This document shows positions 6,962 to 10,881 of a stretch of 64,000 nucleotides of DNA, in pieces; position 1 is the first letter of the stretch, and each line of letters begins with the position of its first letter. The DNA is from Enterobacter hormaechei ATCC 49162. GTDB lineage: Bacteria; Pseudomonadota; Gammaproteobacteria; Enterobacterales; Enterobacteriaceae. The notes under the pieces are model-generated. The model did not search any database, was not told the DNA's origin, and saw nothing but the letters and a program-made list of their open reading frames with translations. The position numbers were made by a program, and so were the translations under genes. The stretch spans positions 434,001 through 498,000 of the forward strand of contig NZ_MKEQ01000001.1 in assembly GCF_001875655.1 (NCBI RefSeq). The letters run 5' to 3'.

Positions 6962-8671
6962 TTACAGCTGCGCTTCTATCACCTCGATCTCTTTTCGCCA
7001 TTGTGCCTGCAACTGCGGTTTTTGGTGTTTTGGCTTGCGCGCCAAATCCTCTTCCAGCAGCGTTTCGAGGGCAACCAGGCGTTCAAGCAGATCGTCAGAC
7101 GCCGCAGATGGTGGCGTTGATGCGGCCTTCGACGCCTCAGGTACAACCGGACCGGTGCCCTCACGCAGGCGTTCAAACATCGCCTCCGCATCGTGCCATT
7201 CGCTCAGCCTGCCGTCCTCAATCAGCCAGAAACGGTTGCAACTCTGACGAATTAACTGACGATCGTGGCTCACCAGCAGCACGCCGCCTTCAAACTGTTG
7301 CAGTGTTTCTGCCAGCGCCTCTTTGCCTTCCATGTCGAGGTGGTTGGTCGGTTCATCGAGCATCAGCAGACTATAGCGGGCAAGCGTCAGGCCGACAAAC
7401 AGCAGGCGCGAACGTTCCCCGCCGCTCAACGTACTGACTTTTTGCCCGTGACGCGCCCATGGGAACCCGGCACTGATGAGCGCCATTTTGCGGGTCTGCG
7501 GATCTGGCGCGAAAGGCTCCAGCGCATCAAGTAGCGCCGCATCGTCCGGCAACTGGTGCAGGGTCTGATCGTAGTAGCCGGGCGAGACGCGCGGGTGACG
7601 CTTAAGCCGGTCGTCCGCGATCTCGTCGCGAAAATGACGCCAGATAAGCCTCAGCAGCGACGATTTACCACAGCCGTTACGTCCCACAATCGCCACGCGA
7701 TCGCCGCTTTTCAGCCGGGCGCTGTCGAGCGTAAACAGGTCTGGCAAACCCGGCGCAGGGGGTACGCCGAGGTGGGTCATTTCCAGCAGGCGGTCAGCCC
7801 GAAGCGCGTCCCCGCGCAGGGTTAAGGTCCACTGGCTTCCCGCCGTCAGTTCCGTCTGGCTCTCTTTCAGCCGTTCGACCTGTTTTTCCATCTGCTTAGC
7901 CTTCCGGGAGAGATCTTCGTTGTCGTAGACCTTGCCCCAGGTCGCGAGACGTCTGGCGCTGGCCGTTACGCGGTCGATCTCTTTTTGCTCTGCCTTATGG
8001 CGTAGCGCATCGCTTTCGTCTTTCGCGTCGAGCGCCTGACGGGCGGCAGTGCAGGGAAGGGCGAAGGCGTGCAGCGTCTTATCGCGCAGGAACCAGCTGC
8101 CGTTGGTTACCGCGTCCAGCAACTGCCTGTCGTGTGAGACCAGCACAAAGCTGCCGGACCAGTTTTGTAAAAACTGCTCCAGCCACAGCAGGGTCGGCAA
8201 ATCGAGGTGGTTGCTCGGTTCGTCCAGCAGCAGCAGATCCGGATCGTTTATCAACGCTCGTGCCAGCAGCAAACGCGTATGCTGACCGCCGCTCAGCGTG
8301 GCGGACTGCAACAGGGTTTCCTGCACCGTAAAGCCCATCCCGGCCAGCAGCGTCTCGGCTTTCCAGCGCAGACTGTCGCGCTCAGCTAAAGGCAGCTGCG
8401 CCAGCACTGCATCCAGCATAGTCAGGGGATAAAGGGTTTCCGGCAGATGTTGTTCCACGCGCGCCAGCAGGCAATGTCCCGCCAGCGAAACGGTTCCGGC
8501 GGCAGGGGACTGCGTCCCGTCGAGGATTTTCAGCAGCGTACTTTTTCCGCAGCCGTTATCACCCAACAGGCCAATGCGATCGCCTTTTTTTAACGTAAAG
8601 GAGAGAGAGTCGAAGAGCGTGCCGAACGCCGTATCAACGCGTAAAGAATGTGCAGTGAGTAGAGTGCTCAT
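6962..8671 (-). CDS. ABC-F family ATPase (ribosome-associated type)
   Basis: A 569-residue soluble protein with two ABC cassettes and no membrane helices, the ABC-F layout (EttA, Uup, YheS, YbiT and the antibiotic-protection proteins). Cassette 1 has GDNGCGKST near residue 37, a LSGGQHTR signature near 128 and LLLLDEPSNHLDL near 148. Cassette 2 has GRNGCGKSS near 330, LSGGERSR near 418 and LMLDEPTNHLDM near 438. A basic linker near residues 210-290 would reach the ribosomal tRNA site, and the Pro/Lys-rich tail (500-569) may form a coiled coil. ABC-F proteins act on stalled ribosomes. I cannot assign a named subfamily. The start ATG has only a weak GGGT ribosome site, and an elaborate leader lies upstream. 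It is not at this place in E. coli. Confidence 0.85.
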   Translation of the reverse strand: MSTLLTAHSLRVDTAFGTLFDSLSFTLKKGDRIGLLGDNGCGKSTLLKILDGTQSPAAGTVSLAGHCLLARVEQHLPETLYPLTMLDAVLAQLPLAERDSLRWKAETLLAGMGFTVQETLLQSATLSGGQHTRLLLARALINDPDLLLLDEPSNHLDLPTLLWLEQFLQNWSGSFVLVSHDRQLLDAVTNGSWFLRDKTLHAFALPCTAARQALDAKDESDALRHKAEQKEIDRVTASARRLATWGKVYDNEDLSRKAKQMEKQVERLKESQTELTAGSQWTLTLRGDALRADRLLEMTHLGVPPAPGLPDLFTLDSARLKSGDRVAIVGRNGCGKSSLLRLIWRHFRDEIADDRLKRHPRVSPGYYDQTLHQLPDDAALLDALEPFAPDPQTRKMALISAGFPWARHGQKVSTLSGGERSRLLFVGLTLARYSLLMLDEPTNHLDMEGKEALAETLQQFEGGVLLVSHDRQLIRQSCNRFWLIEDGRLSEWHDAEAMFERLREGTGPVVPEASKAASTPPSAASDDLLERLVALETLLEEDLARKPKHQKPQLQAQWRKEIEVIEAQL

Positions 8672-8677
8672 TGTTGC

Positions 8678-8698
8678 TTACCCAGGAGTTACAGGCAT
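8678..8698 (-). other. Seven-codon mini-ORF just before the ABC-F start
   Basis: ATG at 8698 encodes MPVTPG and stops at 8678, six bases before the ABC-F ATG. GAGG lies eight bases upstream of it, a better ribosome site than that of the ABC-F gene itself, so ABC-F translation may depend on re-initiation. A still shorter frame (MFDEA) lies just upstream and overlaps the GAGG. Confidence 0.4.
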
Positions 8699-8724
8699 GT
8701 TTATGCCTCGTCAAACATCGCTGA

Positions 8725-8817
8725 CGATAACTCAGTAAGCCCGAGAGAAGGGATTTCAGGGGTTGGTGTCTTCGCTCAAGCGGAAGTTATCGCAGCACGA
8801 TACCGATAACGCTTGAG
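8725..8817 (-). promoter_or_regulatory. Leader with alternative stems upstream of the ABC-F gene
   Basis: Read on the minus strand, CTCAAGC-GTTATCG (8817-8804) pairs with CGATAAC...GCTTGAG (8792-8775), giving a strong hairpin that covers the last third of the leader ORF. A third segment, AGTTATCG (8732-8725), is an exact copy of the first arm plus one base and can pair with the same middle segment CGATAACT (8792-8785). The two pairings exclude each other, the hallmark of attenuator leaders. No convincing T-run follows, so control of translation is more likely than of transcription. Confidence 0.55.
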
Positions 8818-8870
8818 CTGGTGCGATCACCAAATGTATGTGAAACATTGAAAATTTCACAGTACAGCAT
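8787..8870 (-). CDS. 27-residue leader peptide of the ABC-F gene
   Basis: A short frame with a strong ribosome site (AAGGAGG, seven bases before the ATG at 8870). The peptide reads MLYCEIFNVSHTFGD then RTSSSVIGIVLR. Codons 18-22 and 27 plus the stop form the two arms of the first hairpin, so ribosome progress would decide whether that hairpin forms. Leader peptides of this kind precede many inducible ribosome-protection and methylase genes. I do not recognise this peptide, and its expression is inferred only from the ribosome site and its fit with the stems. Confidence 0.5.
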   Translation of the reverse strand: MLYCEIFNVSHTFGDRTSSSVIGIVLR

Positions 8871-8960
8871 AATTGGCCTCCTTATATATTCAGTAGGTTA
8901 ATGGATGAAGGGAGTGTAGCGGGGGAAAATGGGTTTGGCTAGTGGGTAGTGCCGTATATT

Positions 8961-9052
8961 CCCCTCACCCTAACCCTCTCCCCAAAGGGGCGAGGGGACT
9001 GTCCGGTGCGGTTTTCACCCTCTCCCCTTTGGGGAGAGGGCTGGGTGAGGGG
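8961..9052. repeat. Large extragenic inverted repeat (CCCTCACCCTAACCCTCTCCCC type)
   Basis: The left arm begins CCCCTCACCC at 8961 and runs to 8990; the right arm 9024-9052 is its reverse complement except for two or three bases near the middle. Each arm also contains its own small palindrome CCCCAAAGGGG. Repeats of this wording are scattered between genes in many Gammaproteobacteria. Here it lies six bases beyond the maeA stop and probably protects or ends the maeA transcript. The rest of the 8672-9058 gap is the ABC-F leader and its promoter region. Confidence 0.75.
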
Positions 9053-9058
9053 CAATAT

Positions 9059-10756
9059 TTAAATCGAAGTACGACGATAGCTACGGTATTCCGGCATCCA
9101 GAAGTTATCGTCAATCGCCTGCTGCAACGCGTCGGCAGAGGTTTTCACCGCGACGCCTTGCTGCTGCGCCATTTTGCCAACGGCAAAGGCAATAGCGCGG
9201 GACACTTTGTGAATGTCCTTCAGCTCCGGCAGTACCAGCCCTTCACCGTTATTCACCAGCGGTGAGTGACCCGCCAGCGTTTCGCTCGCGGACATCAGCA
9301 TTTCGTCGGTGATCCGTGACGCGCCGGAGGCGATGACCCCCAGGCCAATTCCCGGGAAGATATAAGAGTTGTTGCACTGCGCGATGGGGTAGAGTTTGTC
9401 CTTCCACAGCACCGGATCAAACGGACTGCCGGTCGCGACCAGCGCCTTACCTTCGGTCCAGGCGATAATATCCTGCGGCGTCGCCTCAACGCGTGAAGTC
9501 GGGTTAGACAGCGGCATCACGATTGGACGTTCGCAGTGTTTATGCATCTCGCGAATAATCTCCTCCGTGAAGAGACCGGTCTGCCCGGACACGCCGATCA
9601 GAATGTCCGGCTTCACGTTGCGCACCACGTCAAGAAGCGAGAGCACTTCGTTGTCGGTATCCCAGTTTTTCAGATTCTCGCGCTTCTGCACCAGTTTGGT
9701 CTGGAACGGGAGCAGGTTCGGCATACCGTCGGTCAGCAGGCCAAAACGATCCACCATAAAGACGCGGGAGCGGGCCAGCTCTTCGCTTAAGCCTTCGCGC
9801 TGGGTCTGGGCAATAATTTGCTCGGCGATGCCGCAGCCCGCGGAGCCTGCACCCAGGAAGACAATTTTCTGATAGCTGAGCTGGCTGCCTGCCGCACGGC
9901 TCGCAGCAATCAGCGTTCCCACGGTGACCGCCGCGGTGCCCTGAATGTCATCGTTGAACGAGCAGATCTCATCGCGGTAGCGGTTCAGTAGTGGCATGGC
10001 GTTTTTCTGCGCGAAGTCTTCGAACTGCAACAGCACGTCCGGCCAGCGGTGCTTCACGGCCTGGATGAAATCATCAACAAACTGATAGTACTCGTCGTCG
10101 GTAATGCGCGGGTGACGCCAGCCCATGTACAGCGGATCGTTCAACAGCTGTTGGTTGTTGGTCCCTACGTCCAGCACCACCGGCAGGGTGTAGGCCGGAC
10201 TGATTCCGCCGCAGGCGGTATACAGCGAAAGCTTACCGATGGGGATCCCCATCCCGCCAATGCCCTGGTCGCCGAGACCCAGAATACGTTCGCCATCGGT
10301 TACCACGATCACTTTGATGTTGTGGTTAGGCACGTTTTGCAGAATATCGTCCATGTTGTGACGGTTCTGGTAGGAGATGAACACACCGCGGGAACGGCGG
10401 TAGATCTCTGAGAAACGTTCACACGCCGCGCCGACGGTTGGGGTGTAAATGACGGGCATCATCTCTTCGAGATGGTTCTGCACCAGGCGGTAGAAGAGGG
10501 TTTCGTTGGTGTCCTGGATATTACGCAGGTAGATGTGTTTATCGATTTCGGTTTTAAAGCCCTGATACTGGATCCAGGCACGTTCTGCCTGTTCTTCAAT
10601 GGTTTCAACCACTTCTGGCAGGAGTCCCAGCAGGTTAAAGCTGCTGCGCTCTTCCATGCTGAAGGCGCTGCCTTTGTTCAGAAGGGGGAATTCCAGTAAA
10701 ACCGGACCGGCGTAAGGAATATAAAGGGAACGATGTTTTTTCAGTTTGTTGTCCAT
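9059..10756 (-). CDS. maeA: NAD-dependent malic enzyme
   Basis: A 565-residue enzyme, equal in length to E. coli MaeA (SfcA). It decarboxylates malate to pyruvate with NAD. Readable blocks are the malic-enzyme domain with PVIYTPTVG near residue 103 and RGVFISY near 121, the divalent-metal and malate site FEDFAQKNA and the [12 protein letters not shown] motif near 260-270, the NAD fold [13 protein letters not shown] near 300 and the C-terminal FIFPG-like block. I start at the ATG at 10756, giving [14 protein letters not shown] in register with the family. A GTG three codons upstream is possible but less likely. It sits between adhP and sra as in E. coli, with the ABC-F gene inserted. Confidence 0.96.
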
Positions 10757-10881
10757 GTCACTCACTCTTTTTAAGAAGATCCGTCCCTGACACTGCTGTT
10801 TGTCATCTTTCTGGCCTGTGCTATGGGGTGCGGTCGGGCGGTATTATAAAGGAGCTGAATATTAATTACCGCAACACATAA

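Follow-up and report, generated by a model that had tools for sequence, protein, structure and literature searches.

A conserved leader with two mutually exclusive folds precedes a chromosomal ABC-F gene in Enterobacter and related bacteria

The 64,000-nucleotide stretch of Enterobacter hormaechei ATCC 49162 DNA analyzed here (the window) contains a minus-strand leader of about 210 bases, flanked by a malic enzyme gene (9059-10765) on its 5' side and an ABC-F ATPase gene (6962-8671) on its 3' side. The leader is probably a translation attenuator of the ermC/vmlR type, in which a ribosome stalled on a short upstream frame would expose the ribosome site of the ABC-F gene in response to an inducer. 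Confidence that the leader is real and deeply conserved is strong, given its layout and covariation, and confidence in the computed mechanism is fair. An earlier note on this DNA had proposed that the ABC-F is induced by ribosome stalling on leader mini-frames. The leader frame and the exclusive folds in that proposal are borne out by the analysis, and a role for its second mini-frame is not; with a hidden ABC-F ribosome site added, the arrangement is that of attenuators driven by ribosome stalling.

Layout of the leader

All elements described below are on the minus strand. ORF1 (8787-8870) is a frame of 27 codons that encodes the leader peptide MLYCEIFNVSHTFGDRTSSSVIGIVLR and ends with a TAA within segment 2. 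It is served by the ribosome binding site AAGGAGG (8877-8883) that the earlier note had recognized, which appears as AGGAGG in two registers in the rows of A1, a MAFFT alignment of 75 leaders from which L097 was omitted for its insertion. The hexamer TACACT (8913-8918), a conserved block 5' of ORF1 in an alignment of 91 leaders, is a candidate -10 element for the leader's own promoter, with no clear -35 element; the promoter scan listed none. A small hairpin within ORF1, P0 (8839-8861), is formed by TGTGAA and TTCACA, with 90.3% of cells paired and two-sided changes in 4 of 6 pairs.

Three segments contribute to two alternative stems. Segment 1 (8804-8818; GCTCAAGC-GTTATCG) is located in the last third of ORF1 and pairs with segment 2. 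Segment 2 (8770-8792; CGATAAC-TTCC-GCTTGAGCGAAG) comprises the end of ORF1 and the bases beyond, and pairs with either segment 1 or segment 3; its TGAGCGAAG is invariant in all 75 rows of A1. Segment 3 (8725-8750) includes CTTCTCTCGGGC (8739-8750) and AGTTATCG (8725-8732), and doubles as the 5' half of P1, the repressor stem. The 3' part of the leader is a three-way junction (8676-8740) composed of P1 (8731-8740 with 8676-8686), P3 (8722-8726 with 8709-8713), and P4 (8703-8708 with 8693-8698), which have two-sided changes in 8 of 10, 4 of 5, and 5 of 6 pairs, respectively. P1, with 94.6% of its cells paired, covers the weak ribosome site of the ABC-F gene, GGGTAAG.

The region 8660-8900 has a folding energy of -73.5 kcal/mol, compared with -55.5 kcal/mol for shuffled sequences (z -4.06), and none of 200 shuffles reaches the native value. 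A terminator scan of 8500-9100 listed no transcription terminator. Aside from the stems above, GGAGG of the ORF1 ribosome site is complementary to CTTCY, a conserved stretch of segment 3 (A1 columns 2-6 with 139-143); such a pairing could shut ORF1 off in one state, and its changes are one-sided only. A GC-rich inverted-repeat element (8951-9056) separates the leader from the malic enzyme gene and resembles the boxC-type intergenic repeats. Pieces of this element are the top matches in E. coli genomes, being 86-92.5% identical among the matches listed.

Conservation among ABC-F orthologues

The leader is present at all 173 ABC-F orthologues that are at least 51% identical, which represent five GTDB families, and ORF1 is intact in 172 of them. 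The 173 leaders are from 110 genus and family loci, 37 of 40 family loci, 12 order-level loci (group C), and 14 of 16 fetched loci (group D). Loci L001-L030 and L031-L110 overlap in species, and 148 distinct leader sequences are found among the 172. Two sets of loci were left out, namely ABC-Fs of 39-44% identity without this leader (L141-L143, L189, and L190) and further Enterobacteriaceae loci, several of which had been counted already (L151-L164). Within the family, ORF1 has 27 codons in 143, 28 in two, and 26 in one of 146 leaders. Its length ranges from 25 to 28 codons in groups C and D and is nearly uniform per lineage. In the leader of Phytobacter massiliensis (L072), the loss of a single base towards the 3' end of ORF1 breaks the frame, with the RNA segments kept; this is either a sequencing error or a leader that has lost its peptide.

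The leader covariance model R1 has a match in 46 of 198 genomes. The leader adjoins an ABC-F from the family-level search in 45 of them, and a frame-broken ABC-F copy in the 46th (G088). One genome (G154, locus L194) has, in addition to its true leader, a decayed copy of the leader start some 1.3 kb further upstream, which R1 matches weakly, with an E-value of 1.9e-6.

Downstream of ORF1, the second frame that the earlier note had described, MPVTPG, does exist as ORF2 (8678-8698). It has seven codons and shares bases with P1 and the P4 arm, and six bases separate its end from the ATG of the ABC-F gene (8671). Its sequence is not conserved as such. MPVT[LP][EG] frames occur in at least 66 of 172 leaders, none of which belongs to group C or D among the 20 most frequent kinds listed. 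In 114 of the 172 leaders, some ATG frame of 3-12 codons starts within the final 45 bases, with other sequences and at other places, and such a short frame is found in all 14 leaders of group D. The ORF2 ATG in the window belongs to hairpin P4, and the stem of this hairpin has GC...GC in place of AT...AT elsewhere. The regulatory role that had been proposed for MPVTPG and its Pro-Gly-stop is unsupported, as the frame sequence is not conserved, and we judged ORF2 to be incidental and rejected it as a regulator.

The ABC-F protein and its distribution

The ABC-F gene encodes 569 amino acids, in which the ABC_tran domain is matched in two stretches. The protein has two ABC domains and a helical linker (helices 207-248 and 252-270) and no membrane domain. 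Its AlphaFold2 model, with a pLDDT of 89.5, matches solved ABC-F proteins among the families listed (VIA-align). Among the best 25 of 197 NCBIfam families, the protein does not reach the curated cut-offs of the models of known resistance ABC-Fs, the scores being 315.1 bits for ribo_prot_ABC_F (cut-off 380), 262.7 for Sal (cut-off 725), and 217.2 for Vga (cut-off 725). Matches of the ABC-F in an anti-phage library were read as shared ATPase parts.

Searches for the ABC-F gave a match in 59 of the 61 genomes from its genus (E ≤ 1e-120), in 115 of 392 genomes of its GTDB family (E ≤ 1e-110; three have 41-44% identity, and there are some fragments or broken copies), and in 47 of 394 genomes of its order (E ≤ 1e-90; three are 39-42% identical). 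The class-level search of 368 other genomes found none at E ≤ 1e-105. Among the carriers with a name are Enterobacter, Leclercia, Kosakonia, Citrobacter, Klebsiella, Raoultella, Serratia, Rahnella, and Dickeya, and no place in 5,426 E. coli genomes covers 80% of the gene plus leader. Five single genomes (G011, G258, G308, G395, and G088) have broken copies with in-frame stops, in two pieces, or in several frames.

The earlier note could not name the kind of this ABC-F in Enterobacterales. Matched by distribution alone, it probably belongs to the PAF1 subfamily, a predicted resistance factor that occurs in Enterobacter, Klebsiella, Serratia, and Citrobacter, and not in Escherichia (Murina et al., 2019, PMC6723617). 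The carrier genera are alike, and the part of that paper available to us names no leader for PAF1.

The closed fold

P0, stem 1:2 and the P1/P3/P4 junction constitute the closed fold. We inspected it in alignment A4, which was fitted to R1 and so favors the closed fold. A4 was built from 70 leaders out of the 173, of which 69 are distinct; group D is absent from it, as are L167, L173, and L175. There, 92.9% of the cells of the closed fold are paired, compared with 23-39% (at most 38.7%) for slid versions. Of the 42 pairs, 27 have two-sided changes, which amount to 99 cells; the means for shuffles are 10.7 pairs and 21.6 cells, and none of 500 reaches the native values. Stem 1:2, which the earlier note had drawn from the window sequence, is among the elements with compensatory changes. 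Its outer 8 bp have 98.5% of cells paired, and its inner 7 bp (GTTATCG/CGATAAC) are weaker, with 84.3%. RNAalifold, applied to A1, likewise predicts the greater part of P0, of the outer stem 1:2 and of the junction, and 5 of its 43 pairs have two-sided changes.

A strongly conserved three-way junction over a ribosome site could also be the ligand-binding part of a metabolite or ion riboswitch, with ORF1 being incidental. We consider this very unlikely. The junction stems vary widely in sequence between lineages, unlike a ligand pocket, and ORF1 would hardly be expected to stay intact in 172 of 173 leaders. Moreover, the window has no match to any of 4227 Rfam families at the gathering score, and no match lies within 8672-8900 at E ≤ 10.

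The open fold

The open fold contains stem 2:3, in which segment 2 pairs with segment 3 in two blocks. The first one is between GCTTGAGCGAAG and CTTCYCTCGGGC, with one constant mismatch, and the second one is between CGATAACT and AGTTATCG. A third segment able to pair with the middle one had been proposed in the earlier note; the pairing is real and covarying. Its extent was understated, as CTTCTCTCGGGC at 8739-8750 belongs to segment 3 as well, and the stem joins segment 2 (CGATAAC...GCTTGAGCGAAG) to segment 3 (CTTCYCTCGGGC...GTTATCG).

R1 does not contain stem 2:3. Of its cells in A4, 89.4% are paired, compared with 31-47% (at most 46.8%) for slid versions. Six of the 20 pairs, with 22 cells, show two-sided changes, and no shuffle out of 500 reaches either number; the covariation score is reached by 4 and the number of pair types by 10 of the 500. 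The gain of pairing over shuffles is small (89.4% versus 88.6%) because most bases seldom vary. The close relatives in A1 alone have 93.6% of cells paired with no two-sided change, hence the support for stem 2:3 comes from the divergent lineages. Examples of compensation are CGATAAC/GTTATCG changing to CGATAAT/ATTATTG, and CTTGAG/CTCGGG changing to CTTGAG/CTCAAG. A T-T mismatch persists in the stem of seven leaders that have CGTTAA. The first block is matched only imperfectly in group D, according to a per-leader matching that covers 154 of the 173 leaders and has some visible mispicks.

Both of the mutually exclusive stems claimed in the earlier note are kept with compensatory changes. The observation that the note had said would refute its proposal, a lack of conservation of the leader codons or of the pairing segments in orthologues, is contradicted by these results. 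This retention of two exclusive stems makes it scarcely credible that the leader is a conserved 5' region without regulation that merely fixes a low expression, even though regulation is predicted here from sequence and computation.

Computed opening of the ABC-F ribosome site

The two folds suggest how the attenuator may work. At rest, ORF1 would be translated and ended quickly, and its last third would fold onto segment 2. With stem 1:2 formed, segment 3 would stay in the three-way junction, where P1 would hide the ABC-F ribosome site and keep the gene off. A ribosome stalled at about codons 14-23 of ORF1 would cover segment 1 and free segment 2. The latter would then take segment 3 to form stem 2:3, leaving P1 without its 5' strand and allowing the ABC-F to be translated. 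Ribosomes held at either the start or the stop codon of ORF1 should, by this scheme, leave the ABC-F off. A ribosome-targeting antibiotic or a similar translation block would be the cause of the stall, and the ABC-F would relieve such blocks.

We computed the free energy of opening the ABC-F site, defined as the start codon and the 14 bases before it, while a ribosome footprint of 30 blocked bases was placed at one ORF1 codon after another. The ribosome-free median of 119 distinct leaders is 7.05 kcal/mol, and the medians with the P site at codons 1-9 are 6.8-8.1 kcal/mol. The median falls to 5.28 kcal/mol at codon 14 and 3.45-3.8 kcal/mol at codons 18-21, and is 4.47 kcal/mol at codon 23 and 8.85 kcal/mol with the ribosome at the stop codon. 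Groups C (12 leaders) and D (14 leaders) have medians of 7.26 and 8.57 kcal/mol when free, and 8.69 and 9.04 kcal/mol at the stop codon, respectively. Despite their widely differing sequences, their best medians, 3.35 and 3.92 kcal/mol, are found within 8-14 codons before the stop, and the range of lowered cost is uneven in group D, with 7.2 kcal/mol at 12 codons before the stop. In both the 27-codon set and group D, the opening cost starts to fall at the codon of a conserved Gly; in group C the fall is complete one codon after it.

Controls indicate that the dip is specific only in part. We shuffled segment 2 in 25 of the 119 leaders, drawn from outside groups C and D. With the ribosome at codons 18-21, the cost of the shuffled leaders still drops by 1.9 kcal/mol, compared with 3.3 kcal/mol for the native ones; the native drop is above all ten shuffles in 12 of the 25 leaders and above the shuffle median in 17. 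When the shuffle is narrowed to those bases of segment 2 that follow the ORF1 stop, the native and shuffled drops are 3.45 and 2.92 kcal/mol, and the native one is above all 8 shuffles in 10 of the 25. For the sequence of the window itself the drop is just 1.5 kcal/mol, so the model is not decisive there.

Peptide and RNA constraints on ORF1

We then examined whether ORF1 is constrained as a peptide or as RNA. For 69 distinct 27-codon frames from the first 110 loci, which are close relatives, dN/dS is 0.69 at codons 2-17 and 2.9 at codons 18-27, with 0.85/0.99 and 0.61/0.38 in the other two frames. This indicates little purifying selection on the peptide among close relatives, and much of the conservation there is at the RNA level; several fixed codons of ORF1 fall in stems. 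A purely peptide-driven conservation is unsupported among these relatives, yet the deep set shows a fixed F/L/Y-G. Counted from the peptide end, F, L, or Y is at -15 in 170 of 172 leaders, and G at -14 in 146 (GGT in 83, GGC in 63). Positions -9 and -1 are S and R, respectively, in 171 leaders each, and position -2 is L in 163. Peptides as different as MLYCEIFNVSHTFGDRTSSSVIGIVLR, MLLCDLIEYSHFFGNRQSSGFHSVTLR, MSLWCLINPRFYGMKARSRVIDIALR, and MVIQACPMFSARLFGTFACSCLHTIALR exemplify the set. The third base of the Gly codon is free, which argues for a peptide role at that Gly. The final residues are also within segment 2 and can be explained by RNA. We infer that the F/L/Y-G motif, 13 residues before the peptide end, helps to stall the ribosome.

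Such a motif could also act without any drug. The peptide would pause ribosomes at F-G and the ABC-F would relieve the pause, so that the leader would gauge the capacity of ABC-F or of translation rescue. This form of autoregulation is conceivable, and we hold it to be rather improbable. It would fit the fixed distance of F/L/Y-G from the peptide end in very different leaders, the position of the motif near codon 14, where a stalled ribosome starts to open the site, and the standing of the gene as part of the genus (59 of 61 genomes). However, no known arrest motif is recognized in the peptide, selection on the peptide is weak among close relatives, and the scheme is compatible with drugs as an added trigger.

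Sensing of amino acid shortage or of generally slow elongation, rather than of antibiotics, is unlikely. Stalls anywhere between about codons 14 and 23 would lower the opening cost, and the Ser at -9 is nearly fixed (171 of 172), both of which speak for such sensing. But there is no run of a single amino acid beyond a Ser pair or triplet, and the -9 Ser codon is fixed also by stem 1:2, in which TCA pairs with TGA; no peptide reason is needed for it.

Comparison with known leaders

Attenuation by a ribosome stalled on ORF1 remains the preferred reading, and it has precedents. The ermC-type attenuators have a leader frame and stems 1:2 and 3:4 that alternate with 2:3, and they keep the ribosome site of their resistance gene hidden. 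The leader described here likewise has a leader frame, mutually exclusive stems and a hidden ribosome site. It differs in that the frame has 25-28 codons, the predicted stall is at about codons 14-23, a three-way junction takes the place of 3:4, and the system is chromosomal.

Three other systems were compared. The vmlR, vga(A), and cplR leaders of Gram-positive bacteria have an upstream frame that controls an ABC-F and sense several drug classes, which likely stall ribosomes at start codons (PMC12121999). The upstream frame before an ABC-F is shared with these leaders as described there, whereas a start-codon stall is predicted to be ineffective in ours. In msrDL-msrD, the leader peptide MYLIFM precedes a resistance ABC-F, and the ribosome stalls at the stop codon in a system that works through a Rho-independent terminator (PMC10314930). 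A leader peptide before an ABC-F is common to both, as far as that source describes it; here, in contrast, no terminator is listed in 8500-9100, and a ribosome at the stop codon leaves the site closed in the model. The E. coli toiL-topAI leader has an upstream frame and a hidden ribosome site that is opened by stalled ribosomes; toiL controls a toxin-antitoxin operon, and the frame itself pairs with the ribosome site (PMC12121999). The frame and hidden site are alike, and the available portion of the source describes no 2:3 exchange for toiL. The toiL leader indicates that such sensors do exist in an enterobacterium (PMC12121999). None of the papers listed by our literature search describes the present leader; most subscription papers and preprints were outside its scope, and a prior description is possible.

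Discussion

The attenuator may reach further back than a response to clinical drugs. We tentatively propose that the leader peptides are an ancient family of arrest peptides ([FLY]-G-x12-R-stop), unrelated to known arrest motifs, that has been inherited together with its RNA switch and a chromosomal ABC-F in at least five families of one gammaproteobacterial order. The leader would then be a standing feedback sensor of blocked ribosomes, whose output relieves the block, and it would answer natural, non-clinical ribosome inhibitors. We regard this proposal as possible rather than probable.

If the leader works as proposed, Enterobacter, Klebsiella, Citrobacter, Serratia and their relatives would have a hidden, inducible expression of a possible ribosome-protection factor, and tests of resting expression would miss such an inducible ABC-F. 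The leader could in turn be used to report the compounds that this orphan ABC-F, probably PAF1, evolved to answer.
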